Origin: Ilumatobacteraceae bacterium
GTDB lineage: Bacteria; Actinomycetota; Acidimicrobiia; Acidimicrobiales; Ilumatobacteraceae
Direction of reading: 5' to 3'
Assembly (NCBI GenBank): GCA_016463775.1
Contig: JAEMQQ010000004.1
Span: 1 to 48,286 of the forward strand
DNA length: 48,286 nt
In this document: positions 42,390 through 48,286 of the stretch, one piece after another
Position numbering within the stretch: position 1 is the stretch's first letter
Layout of the letters: every line of letters begins with the position of its first letter
Translations under genes and position numbers: made by a program
Notes under the pieces: model-generated
The model's input: only the letters and a program-made list of their open reading frames with translations
The model's database searches: none
What the model was told of the DNA's origin: nothing

Positions 42390-42939
42390 CCCCAGCGCAC
42401 TCGTCACGTGGGCCAATGCGGTCACGGTCGGACGCTTGGTGGTGTCGCCACTGCTCTTCACCGTGATTCCCGTTGCGCCGGGCGGTTCATGGGTGGCACT
42501 CGCTGCATGGTTCGTGCTGTGTGCCAGCGATGGCTTCGACGGCTTTTTGGCACGACGCCACGGCATCACGCGGTCGGGTGCCTTCCTTGACCCTTTGGCC
42601 GACAAGGTGCTGGTGCTCGGTGCGATGTTCACCTTGGTATCACGCGGGGTGTTCTGGATGTTGCCCGTCGTCATCATCACTGCGCGGGAAGTCATCGTGA
42701 GCGTCTACCGCGTGCTGGCCGGCGCCAAAGGTGTGTCGATGCCCGCCAGTCGAACCGCCAAGGTCAAGACCCTCAGCCAGCAACTGGCCGTGGCTGGTGC
42801 ACTGATGCCACTCACCTTTGACGAGCGTTGGCTGTGGTTGTCGCTGCTGTGGCTGGCAGTGGCACTCACCTTGTTGTCGGGTGCGCAATATGCATGGAAG
42901 GCTGTCACCACACGAGGGAGGCCCGCCGGTGCGTTGTGA
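42379..42939 (+). CDS. pgsA: CDP-diacylglycerol-glycerol-3-phosphate 3-phosphatidyltransferase
   Basis: Makes phosphatidylglycerol phosphate in the membrane. The protein has 186 aa with about five hydrophobic segments and the complete CDP-alcohol phosphotransferase motif: Asp51-Gly52..Asp54-Gly55..Ala58-Arg59, Gly67, Asp71 and Asp75 (SDGFDGFLARRHG and FLDPLADK). Start TTG 42379 gives MSVDPSALVTWANAVTVGR and overlaps rimO. Its 3' end overlaps cinA by 11 nt. The rimO-pgsA-cinA order is conserved in actinobacteria. Confidence 0.94.
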   Translation: MSVDPSALVTWANAVTVGRLVVSPLLFTVIPVAPGGSWVALAAWFVLCASDGFDGFLARRHGITRSGAFLDPLADKVLVLGAMFTLVSRGVFWMLPVVIITAREVIVSVYRVLAGAKGVSMPASRTAKVKTLSQQLAVAGALMPLTFDERWLWLSLLWLAVALTLLSGAQYAWKAVTTRGRPAGAL

Positions 42940-44167
42940 TGTCGTTGCAATAGGAACGGAATTGCTGCTCGGGCAAATCGTCGACACCAATTCATCGTGG
43001 CTCGGTGAGCAACTGGCAGCAGCAGGGCTGGATTCGTGCCTGCAAGTAAAAGTGGGTGACAATCAGGCGCGAATCGTCGCTGCGTTGCGCTCGGTGCTGC
43101 GTGATGCCGACGCCATCATTATTTGCGGTGGTCTTGGCCCCACGCACGATGACATCACCCGCGAGGCCATTGCCGAAGTGATGGGTGTCGATCTCGTGCT
43201 TGACGAAGTAATCGCCGACCGCATCGCCCACATGTTTGCCAGCCGCAACCGCAAGATGAGCGAAAATAACCTGCGGCAGGCGATGGTGCCAGTTGGCGCC
43301 CAGGTGATTGAACAAAAGCGGGGCACCGCACCAGGCCTGATTTGCCCGGTTGGCGACAAGGTGATGTATGCCGTACCTGGTGTGCCCTACGAGTTGCACG
43401 AGATGTACGAGCGGGCGATTCTTCCCGACCTGCTCGCCCGCTCCGGCGAGCAGCGCAAGATTGCCTCACGTGTCGTGCGCACCTGGGGCGAGAGCGAAAG
43501 CGGCTTGAACGAGCGCCTGCAGCCGATCATCGACGACCTCGACAAGGTTGGCAACCCGACGCTCGCATTCCTCGCCAGCGGATGGGAGGGCATCAAGGTG
43601 CGACTCACCGGTCGCGGTGCCGACACTGCCGAGGTCACCGCGCTTCTTGATGTGTGGGCCGAACGGGTGCATGCAGTGATTCCTGAAGTGGTGTTTGGTT
43701 ATGACACCGACACGATGGAATCTGTCGTACTTGATTTGCTACGCAAACGCGGGCTCACGATCGGTGTGGCCGAGTCGGTGACCGGTGGTTTGGTGGCGGG
43801 TCGGCTCACCGCCATTGCCGGCGCCAGTGATGTGATGCGGGGTGGCGTCGTGGCGTATGCCAGTGAGGTGAAGTTCGACGTGCTGGGCGTGCCTCGTGGC
43901 CCGGTGATCAGCGAAGAAACATCGCGGGCCATGGCCCTCGGGGTGTGCCGCACGGTGGGCTCGTCGGTCGGGCTGGCACTCACGGGTGTGGCCGGCCCCG
44001 ATGAACAAGACGGTGCCAAGGTCGGCACGCTGTGCATCGCAGTGGCGATGCCTGGTGGTGTCGCGAGCTCGACCACGGTGATGTTGCCCGGGGATCGCAA
44101 GACGATGCGCGAACTTTCGGTGATTTCTGCGCTCAACTACCTGCGCCAGCTGCTGCTGCGCGGCTAA
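42929..44167 (+). CDS. cinA: CinA family protein (competence/damage-inducible, nicotinamide-nucleotide amidohydrolase type)
   Basis: Protein of 412 aa. The N-terminal molybdopterin-binding-like (COG1058) domain has GTELLLGQIVDTNSSWL and GGLGPTHDDITREA. The C-terminal NMN deamidase domain (from about residue 265) has GLTIGVAESVTGGLVAGRLT and LTGVAGPD. It recycles nicotinamide mononucleotide and hydrolyses ADP-ribose-type compounds. GTG 42929 has a GAGGGAGG Shine-Dalgarno at 42914-42921 inside pgsA and is preferred over earlier in-frame starts. recA or clgR, frequent downstream neighbours, are absent here. Confidence 0.94.
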   Translation: MRCDVVAIGTELLLGQIVDTNSSWLGEQLAAAGLDSCLQVKVGDNQARIVAALRSVLRDADAIIICGGLGPTHDDITREAIAEVMGVDLVLDEVIADRIAHMFASRNRKMSENNLRQAMVPVGAQVIEQKRGTAPGLICPVGDKVMYAVPGVPYELHEMYERAILPDLLARSGEQRKIASRVVRTWGESESGLNERLQPIIDDLDKVGNPTLAFLASGWEGIKVRLTGRGADTAEVTALLDVWAERVHAVIPEVVFGYDTDTMESVVLDLLRKRGLTIGVAESVTGGLVAGRLTAIAGASDVMRGGVVAYASEVKFDVLGVPRGPVISEETSRAMALGVCRTVGSSVGLALTGVAGPDEQDGAKVGTLCIAVAMPGGVASSTTVMLPGDRKTMRELSVISALNYLRQLLLRG

Positions 44168-44233
44168 CTGCACCCCGTCCCCGCCACACGGAGCGATTAC
44201 CGATCGGCTGCGGTGCTTCCGGTAAATGAGAAA

Positions 44234-44257
44234 GGCCCCGGTCTTTCGACCGGGGCC
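44234..44257 (-). terminator. Rho-independent terminator of the rhodopsin gene
   Basis: GGCCCCGGTC (44234-44243), loop TTTC, GACCGGGGCC (44248-44257) form a perfect 10-bp GC-rich stem. On the minus strand it is followed by TTTCTCATTT, a U-rich run, 38 nt past the rhodopsin stop. It could also block read-through from cinA, although the plus side has no U-tract. Confidence 0.8.
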
Positions 44258-44294
44258 CTTCGACCACCCCGAAGGATGGTGAATCATCTGAGCC

Positions 44295-45053
44295 TTAGGC
44301 GGCTCGGTAACCCTCTGCGTTGGAACGCGCGATGGCGATACTCATGATGAGCAAGCCGTAACCAGGCTTGGCCAAGATGTCGGCCACGGTGTAGCCGACT
44401 TGAATCGTCGTCATTGCGTCGCTGTCGCTCAGGCCGAGTGTCGTTGACAACCAGCTCGTCGAATCGCCGAGAATGTAGGCGATGGGGTAGACACCCCAGG
44501 TTGCAAGGAGCAGGTAGCGCACGTTGTTCAGCTTGCTGCCGACTTCTCCGGCCTGTGACTTGAGCGCCTTGCCCACTTCGCCAGCGAACAATTCGTACAA
44601 CACATAGAGCATGAAGATCGCCGAGACGATGCCCCAGACGGTGCGGTCGTTGCTGCCGAATTCGGCAGTTTCGCCCGGATATCCAGTGGCAATCATCAAG
44701 AGCGATGCCACGATGAGTCGTGGGGTTACGCGCTTGGCGACTTCTTTGCTGAGGCCTGATACCACGACGAGTTCAGCGACGAGTAATGGAACGGTGAGGA
44801 GCCAGTCCGCGTAGCGGTAGCCCTCGTTCCACTCTCCACTGCCGAACTGGCCGAAAATACGCCAGTAGTGGTAACCAGCGATACCGCAAATCATCGCCGA
44901 CATGGTGACAGCGCTGCGGTACTGCGGGGCTACGCGATTACGCGAGACCAAGAAGTACACAAAAGCGATTCCCATCGCCGCGACGGCGAATGAGAGGCTG
45001 TTGTATACGAGGTCCGCTTGGGCTCCTTCGAGTCCGAGTGGATTGGTTGCCAT
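44295..45053 (-). CDS. Proteorhodopsin-type light-driven proton pump (microbial rhodopsin)
   Basis: Seven-helix retinal protein of 252 aa. Helix C reads RYADWLLTVPLLVAE, giving Asp83 (proton acceptor), Thr87 and Glu94 (proton donor), the DTE triad of outward H+ pumps. Leu91 occupies the green-tuning position (L105 of proteorhodopsin). His62 in YHYWRI corresponds to the His that pairs with the acceptor, and Lys229 in VADILAKPGYG binds retinal. The N terminus lacks a long signal peptide. ATG 45053 has a strong GGAGGT Shine-Dalgarno. It is monocistronic, with its own terminator. No retinal or carotenoid genes (blh, crt) lie in the window, so chromophore supply must be encoded elsewhere or be taken up. 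Confidence 0.95.
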   Translation of the reverse strand: MATNPLGLEGAQADLVYNSLSFAVAAMGIAFVYFLVSRNRVAPQYRSAVTMSAMICGIAGYHYWRIFGQFGSGEWNEGYRYADWLLTVPLLVAELVVVSGLSKEVAKRVTPRLIVASLLMIATGYPGETAEFGSNDRTVWGIVSAIFMLYVLYELFAGEVGKALKSQAGEVGSKLNNVRYLLLATWGVYPIAYILGDSTSWLSTTLGLSDSDAMTTIQVGYTVADILAKPGYGLLIMSIAIARSNAEGYRAA

Positions 45054-45233
45054 TATGTCTTACCTCCGTGGTTGAACCCGAGTGACCGGATGGCCGCCCT
45101 GTTGGGGTCAAGTCAGTTCTAGGGCATGACGCCCAAGACAGCCCCGCAAATCCAGTTACAAGTCCCTTACCTTTCCGGGTGGTTTGTAATGAAACTGTCA
45201 TATTTGGGCTGGCGACCAGGGGTGCGGCCACCA

Positions 45234-45295: not shown

Positions 45296-45369
<74 letters not shown>

Positions 45370-45429
45370 CCACATCACGAGGTCGTGCGTGCGTATCTAC
45401 GCCTTAGCCTGAAACGACTGTTCGGAGGA

Positions 45430-46074
45430 ATGGCAAACGTGAAGAAATTCAAAAAAGGTGACACGGTCATCTATCCGCAACATGGGGCCTGCACGGTCAA
45501 GGTGATCAAACGCATGCGTGCTTTTGACGTGATGCAGGAGTATCTGATCCTCGAGTCGGTGATGACCGATGCCGCTGGCAAAGGCATGACCCTGTCGGTG
45601 CCGGTCGCCAAGGTGTACGACCTTGGCATTCGTCCGCCCGTGTCCAAGAGCGAACTGCAAGATTTGGTGGACGTGCTTTCCAAGCCGGATCCGCGCGTGC
45701 CTGCCAACTGGTCGCGTCGTTTCAAGAACCACCAAGAAAAGTTGAAGAGTGGCGACGTATATCAAGTCGCAGAAGTCGTACGCAACCTGGCGGCACGTGA
45801 CCGCGAGAATCAGTTGTCGGCTGCCGAGAAAACGATGTACGAACGCGCCCGGCTCAACCTCATCTCCGAGATTGCGCCGTCAAAGCGATGCTCGACCGAG
45901 GAGGCCACCCGCTTCCTCGATGACGCCCTCGAAAAAGGCGTGTTGAGTGCCGACGGTAAGTCGCAGTTGCAGGAACTCGGGCGGGCATCGACTGGTGGTA
46001 AGCGCAAGACCGATACGGCAAAGGGCCCAGCGAAAAAGCCGGCCAAGCCCAAGGCGACGAGCAAAAAGAAATAA
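45430..46074 (+). CDS. carD: CarD-family RNA polymerase-binding transcription regulator
   Basis: Protein of 214 aa. The N-terminal Tudor-like RNAP-interaction domain (FKKGDTVIYPQHGACTVKVI) binds the beta subunit, and the C-terminal helical domain contacts the promoter -10 upstream fork (SRRFKNHQEKLKSGDVYQVAEVVRNLAARD, then LSAAEKTMYERARLNLISE). Mycobacterial CarD is about 160 aa; here a Lys/Ala/Pro-rich tail (GGKRKTDTAKGPAKKPAKP) adds roughly 30 residues and could bind DNA nonspecifically. A GGAGG at 45424-45428 is only 1 nt from ATG 45430 but 10 nt from the in-frame GTG 45439 (MKKFKKGDTVIYP), which may be the true start. It stabilises open complexes, chiefly at rRNA promoters in relatives. 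Confidence 0.93.
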   Translation: MANVKKFKKGDTVIYPQHGACTVKVIKRMRAFDVMQEYLILESVMTDAAGKGMTLSVPVAKVYDLGIRPPVSKSELQDLVDVLSKPDPRVPANWSRRFKNHQEKLKSGDVYQVAEVVRNLAARDRENQLSAAEKTMYERARLNLISEIAPSKRCSTEEATRFLDDALEKGVLSADGKSQLQELGRASTGGKRKTDTAKGPAKKPAKPKATSKKK

Positions 46075-48264: not shown

Positions 48265-48286
48265 ACACAGTCGTGAGACTAGGAAC

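Follow-up and report, generated by a model that had tools for sequence, protein, structure and literature searches.

The window (the whole stretch of DNA that was analyzed, 48,286 nucleotides in length) starts at base 1 of a contig of 58,128 bases and belongs to a 1.56 Mb genome of the Ilumatobacteraceae that is 94% complete. The opsin gene was found to have an ATG start codon and zero internal stops. The encoded protein scored 136.4 bits against PF01036 (Bac_rhodopsin), for which the Pfam cut-off is 24.6, and is the sole PF01036 match in this assembly at a completeness of ~94%. The features of the locus are presented in Table 1. An earlier note on this DNA had described a single-gene unit with a strong Shine-Dalgarno sequence and a terminator of its own. 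The single gene was borne out, as was the GGAGGT motif 8 nt before the ATG. The terminator stands in part: a 14-bp hairpin follows the stop codon (shuffle z of -5.5), but it was not among the sites listed by a consensus terminator scan. A promoter scan found no sigma-70-like promoter for the opsin. A run of N in the contig begins at the window end, position 48286 (L056:288-387); it is flanked by a repeat of ~45 bases and is thus probably a scaffolding gap.

Table 1. Positions of the opsin gene, its signals, its diagnostic codons, and its neighbors in the window.
Feature	Position	Strand	Remarks
cinA, convergent neighbor	42935..44167	+	name from an earlier sequence reading; conserved in the genus and nearer sisters
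Terminator-like hairpin (14-bp stem, GAAA loop, then T-rich stretch)	44230..44261	-	between cinA and the opsin
Xanthorhodopsin-type opsin gene, 252 aa	44295..45053	-	ATG start, intact frame; AlphaFold model pLDDT 90.7
Lys229 codon, retinal Schiff-base lysine	44367..44369	-	alignment
Ala145 codon, second pocket position	44619..44621	-	alignment (XR T160, Kin4B8 T157)
Gly141 codon, antenna fenestration position	44631..44633	-	alignment (XR G156, Kin4B8 G153, GR G178)
Codons D83-E94 of helix C (acceptor D83, T87, tuning L91, donor E94)	44772..44807	-	alignment to XR, Kin4B8, GR
Shine-Dalgarno GGAGGT	45062..45067	-	8 nt 5' of the opsin ATG
tRNA-Arg(TCT), upstream neighbor	45296..45372	+	
carD-like gene (presumptive label)	45430..46074	+	neighbor conserved in the genus

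The site had been regarded as atypical for a rhodopsin, a claim that we reject for this genus and the sister lineages nearest to it. Among 46 loci searched, cinA was found convergent beside the opsin at 20 opsin loci from 14 genomes, five of the genus and nine of sister lineages whose opsins are 69-78% identical; the remaining loci of these lineages break off before the position of cinA. Since the adjacency recurs in 14 genomes, the site is old in the lineage, not odd. The other side of the opsin is flanked in the genus by tRNA-Arg(TCT) and a gene that we take, from its sequence, to be carD-like. The lineage of the g4-type orthologues (opsins 67-72% identical) has a different downstream flank, and cinA was absent from the sequence past the opsin, which extends for at least ~2.5 kb, at L070, L072, and L092-L095. 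The tRNA-Arg(TCT) lies ~1 kb upstream of the opsin at L070, L072, and L094, and was not found at L071, the fourth g4-type locus scanned.

The gap between cinA and the opsin is only 127 bases in the window. In two relatives of the genus this interval contains a small antitoxin-like gene and a Doc-like gene with the motif NHALIDGNKRLG (L065:1861-2453 in G086 and L066:3068-3654 in G048), and a mere remnant of the pair is found in a third (L059:9964-10191 in G009); both names are our presumption from the motifs. No rhodopsin match was obtained in the genus members G032, G097, and G119, and because cinA is likewise absent there, the missing match in these three is only a possible loss of the opsin. 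G121 and G124 (L073) appear to be the same genome, with crtB in an identical place, and the G121 contig with cinA stops soon past that gene.

The AlphaFold model of the opsin was built from an alignment of 22 rows (the window and locus proteins) and displays a Bac_rhodopsin fold with seven long helices and the retinal lysine. The closest folds were found to be those of Gloeobacter rhodopsin (GR), psXR, Kin4B8, and xanthorhodopsin (XR). By sequence, the closest solved relatives are XR, Kin4B8, the actinorhodopsin RlActR (9hfk), psXR, and GR. XR from Salinibacter ruber (3ddl) resembles the opsin in fold with a Z-score of 31.1, an rmsd of 1.6 over 235 aligned residues, and a sequence identity of 46%. 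The two proteins share the DTE triad, His62, the fenestration Gly, and the carotenoid-site Tyr; they differ in the B-C loop, which is ~12 residues shorter in the opsin, and at Thr160 of XR, which is Ala145 in the opsin. RlActR is 44% identical to the opsin over 238 residues. Actinorhodopsins (acI/Luna) likewise come from aquatic actinobacteria, and those of acI form a clade apart from that of the opsin on the rhodopsin tree. The B-C loop of the opsin contains 10-11 residues, versus 23 in most of the rows (34 of 42) that do not belong to the two short-loop clades. A freshwater origin is described for Kin4B8 (PMC13093654). Metagenome-assembled genomes (MAGs) of the acIV lineage were first reported in 2015 from brackish water, in a set of 30 MAG clusters of which 25 encode rhodopsins (PMC4699468).

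The earlier note had read the DTE triad, Leu91, and Lys229 as the residues of a green proton pump, and alignment to XR, Kin4B8, and GR agrees with this reading. Residues D83/T87/E94, L91, and K229 correspond to D96/T100/E107, L104, and K240 of XR, and thus the opsin has the Asp acceptor, the Thr, the Glu donor, and the Leu at the tuning site of the DTE type. H62, D83, T87, L91, E94, D225, and K229 were found to be invariant in 104 aligned rows (the window opsin and 103 locus rows, with some genomes represented twice). We take H62 to be the His partner, D225 the second counter-ion, and L91 the green-tuning Leu. By homology, the opsin is predicted to be a green-absorbing, outward, light-driven proton pump, in which D83, together with H62, would accept the Schiff-base proton, E94 would reprotonate the Schiff base, and L91 would tune the absorption to green. 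Two side observations concern other rhodopsins: the family genome G026 has, in addition to its DTE pump, a second one (C91:15777-16514, L218) that is 32% identical and has N, D, and Q at the three motif positions, and the opsin frame of G035 contains one TAA.

It had been suggested earlier that the VWG of helix E may bear on a carotenoid-antenna fenestration, and an alignment of helix E with antenna-binding rhodopsins was called for. In that alignment, Gly141 coincides with the fenestration glycine of XR, Kin4B8, and GR, and the antenna slot is thus predicted to be open. In an antenna-capable rhodopsin, position XR156 is expected to be a Gly and free of bulk, and XR207 to be a Tyr; the opsin has G141 and Y193, the latter equivalent to Y204 of Kin4B8. 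Compared with Kin4B8 (7ytb; 8i2z with zeaxanthin bound), Gly153 and Tyr204 are conserved in the opsin, whereas Thr157 is replaced by Ala and Tyr209 aligns with Leu, and thus the anchoring of the ring or the choice of carotenoid may differ from that in Kin4B8. In published work, a carotenoid site is recognized by this Gly and Tyr, and bulky replacements abolish carotenoid binding in Kin4B8 (PMC12308411); the fenestration Gly is also named as a feature of the site in PMC13093654. The G178W substitution in GR stopped the binding of carotenoid and even improved stability and pumping, and Trp and Phe substitutions at the slot Gly are reported among 150 GR homologues (PMC9151804). An actinorhodopsin was found to bind a native actinobacterial carotenoid (PMC8113403). 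On the basis of the alignment, we infer that the opsin may bind a carotenoid that passes energy to retinal. With helix E open at Gly141/Ala145, a carotenoid from the cell's own crtE-crtI-crtB/lycopene-cyclase pathway could sit beside the retinal and would pass light energy to it.

The genes for such a pathway are found in the host genome. Contig C46 carries a crtE-like gene, crtI, and a crtB that is cut by the contig end, and C28 carries a lycopene cyclase above the TIGR01790 cut-off. The crtI gene is above its subfamily cut-off, and the crtE-like gene is above that of PF00348 only. The CrtB of a relative scored best on HpnD, below all cut-offs, and its gene adjoins crtI. In G009, G086, and G032, the crt cluster continues with a CruF-like hydratase and a CrtD-like desaturase. 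The CruF-like protein, scanned from G009 (the CrtD-like protein being from G086), is above the PF04240 cut-off and below the NCBIfam CruF cut-offs. A cruF query matched 11 of the 13 genus genomes and gave no match in the assembly that contains the window, whose crt contig stops inside crtB. An acyclic pathway without lycopene cyclase, considered from the crtE-I-B-cruF-crtD cluster, is ruled out by the cyclase on another contig. The combination of cruF and crtD with a cyclase would be expected to lead to a myxol-like pigment. The cruF/crtD-like genes of the genus relatives, taken with the cyclase, suggest that the pigment would be monocyclic, 1'-hydroxylated, and myxol-like. By its title, 9jow is the structure of a myxol-bound rhodopsin.

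Among the orthologues, position 141 is Gly in the genus of the window and in some sisters, and Phe or Trp in others. For 98 rhodopsin rows, which represent 97 genomes, the state of the slot was scored against matches to PF00494 (phytoene/squalene synthase); the family survey and the genus supplied 55 rows, and 43 further genomes supplied the others. Gly or Ala was taken as open and Phe or Trp as blocked; in the Trp clade, position 141 was read ungapped, counted from Tyr150. PF00494 was found with an open slot in 44 of 55 rows and with a blocked slot in 0 of 43. Counted by genome, 43 were open with PF00494, 11 open without it, 0 blocked with it, and 43 blocked without it. A Fisher test on the row counts takes no account of relatedness. 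For the family genomes listed as at least 90% complete, crtB is present in 9/12 with an open slot versus 0/23 with a blocked slot. Position 145, one helix turn on, is T, S, G, or A in 55/55 open rows and M, L, F, or I in 43/43 blocked rows. Squalene synthases fall under PF00494 as well, and the gene surroundings were therefore examined. A CrtI homologue (E < 1e-30) lies near the PF00494 gene in 42 of the 44 open rows, which counters the identification of these matches as squalene synthases; at this threshold none was found near the PF00494 gene in G143 and G156. The open rows without a PF00494 match are from G004, G011, G066, G074, G091, G108, G127, G128, G135, G148, and G155, among which G011, G066, and G091 are 93-96% complete.

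The blocked-slot rhodopsins of the family with a 10-residue B-C loop (26 rows) have a short loop as in the opsin, and the two members inspected for it, L029 and L182, also share the YRYADW of the opsin. They differ from the opsin in the Trp at the fenestration, in the Met or Ile at position 145, and in the lack of a PF00494 match in their genomes. This group may correspond to what we presume are the published acidirhodopsins.

The rhodopsin tree was built without the helix-E columns 139-146, and the slot state was found to switch four times. The 3-4 independent pairs contain none against the rule, at a number where a sign test cannot reach 0.05, and with only about four switches the formal independence of the association between slot and crtB is weak. 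Rooting of the orthologue clade on open outgroups gives an open ancestral state and about two closures; a tree with just one closure was not rejected by the AU test (p 0.078). The pattern is as would be expected if the slot remained open because the rhodopsin uses the carotenoid, and it hints that the pigments are kept to feed the pump; shared ancestry with few switches is a serious rival. The opsin could be a retinal-only proton pump in which Gly141 is an ancestral leftover and the carotenoids are photoprotective. The few independent switches are in keeping with such a pump, as are the open rhodopsins in the crtB-less G011, G066, and G091; moreover, the gains of the GR G178W variant suggest that filling of the slot may be favored for itself (PMC9151804). 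However, none of the 43 blocked rhodopsins has PF00494 in its genome, position 145 follows the same split with no exception, and the contrast extends to close sisters (G061/G126 versus the Phe group). We consider a retinal-only pump to be unlikely, though deserving of serious attention.

The DTE pumps, the xanthorhodopsins, the actinobacterial rhodopsins without Blh, and the divergence from Gly to Trp or Phe at the slot are already known. No precedent for a link between slot and carotenoid pathway across genomes was found in the open-access literature searched, a scope that is not proof of absence.

The statement in the earlier note that there are no retinal genes nearby, for which a genome search for blh and crtEBIY was proposed, holds for Blh and has to be qualified for the carotenoid genes, since other contigs of the genome carry crtE, crtI, crtB, and a lycopene cyclase. 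Of a self-sufficient retinal system, the ~94%-complete genome has these four and no Brp/Blh match. Blh was searched by Pfam PF15461, with matches in 0/10 genus genomes and 9/121 family genomes, and by a lineage profile built from the nine PF15461-positive relatives, with matches in 0/13 genus genomes and in 0/12 other orthologue-bearing genomes. This profile recovered 4/4 control genomes, of which G061 is also in the profile. A Blh match is absent from 45 of the 54 rhodopsin genomes of the family. The Blh frame of Clavibacter sp. BS5 (L225 in G154) has six in-frame stops, which indicate either a decaying gene or assembly errors. It could be argued from the lack of Blh in all 13 genus genomes that the opsin is non-functional for want of retinal, but the frame is intact, all catalytic residues are retained, and purifying selection is indicated by dN/dS values of 0.03-0.20 (10 pairs, 8 with open and 2 with blocked slots). 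In addition, Aurantimicrobium is reported to lack both blh and diox1 and yet to have a working rhodopsin and to make its own retinal (PMC7734400). A non-functional opsin is thus very improbable. Most Luna-1 genomes keep crt genes and are without blh (PMC12422013).

The retinal would come from outside the cell or via a CCD-type carotenoid oxygenase. It is conceivable that a CCD/RPE65-type enzyme of the P0003 type replaces Blh and that this is the main reason for keeping the carotenoid pathway, which would be compatible with a carotenoid antenna. Two CCD/RPE65 genes lie on C16 of the host genome, and at least one CCD is found in 12/13 genus genomes; G123 has both crtB and a CCD. P0003 scored 511 bits on NF052295, the model for apocarotenoid 13,14-cleaving enzymes, though its cut-off is 675. 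MtCCO cleaves C40 carotenoids at the 15-15' and 13-14 positions (PMC5133782), and the endogenous retinal of Aurantimicrobium also agrees with such a route. However, CCD is present in 94 of 121 family genomes versus 54 with a rhodopsin, and thus there is no specific link; co-occurrence gives no support for CCD as an obligate substitute for Blh. Five rhodopsin-bearing genomes (G002, G003, G013, G031, and G035) that are 91-98% complete have zero matches to Blh, crtB, and CCD, and would need either an external source of retinal or a route other than those known. We regard in-cell synthesis of retinal by a CCD as doubtful.

The interpretation that we favor, with a probability of roughly 60%, is that this genus of acIV-type Ilumatobacteraceae has a green xanthorhodopsin-type proton pump at a fixed chromosomal site, keeps its own carotenoids for an antenna, and obtains retinal without Blh. 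More tentatively, and at somewhat less than even odds, the slot and the pathway may co-evolve in the family, such that loss of the pathway is accompanied by two bulky residues, and where the pathway is kept the slot stays open despite the loss of Blh. The host would then scavenge its retinal and synthesize the antenna pigment itself, in all probability a monocyclic xanthophyll of the myxol-like kind. The retention of the carotenoid pathway in genomes without Blh suggests a reason for the pathway other than retinal.

The opsin itself is a protein of known type, and it is the coupling between slot and pathway that is of interest. The close sisters that differ both in slot state and in carotenoid pathway constitute a natural experiment, which makes it directly testable how far natural rhodopsins of actinobacteria in the water column rely on carotenoid antennas.
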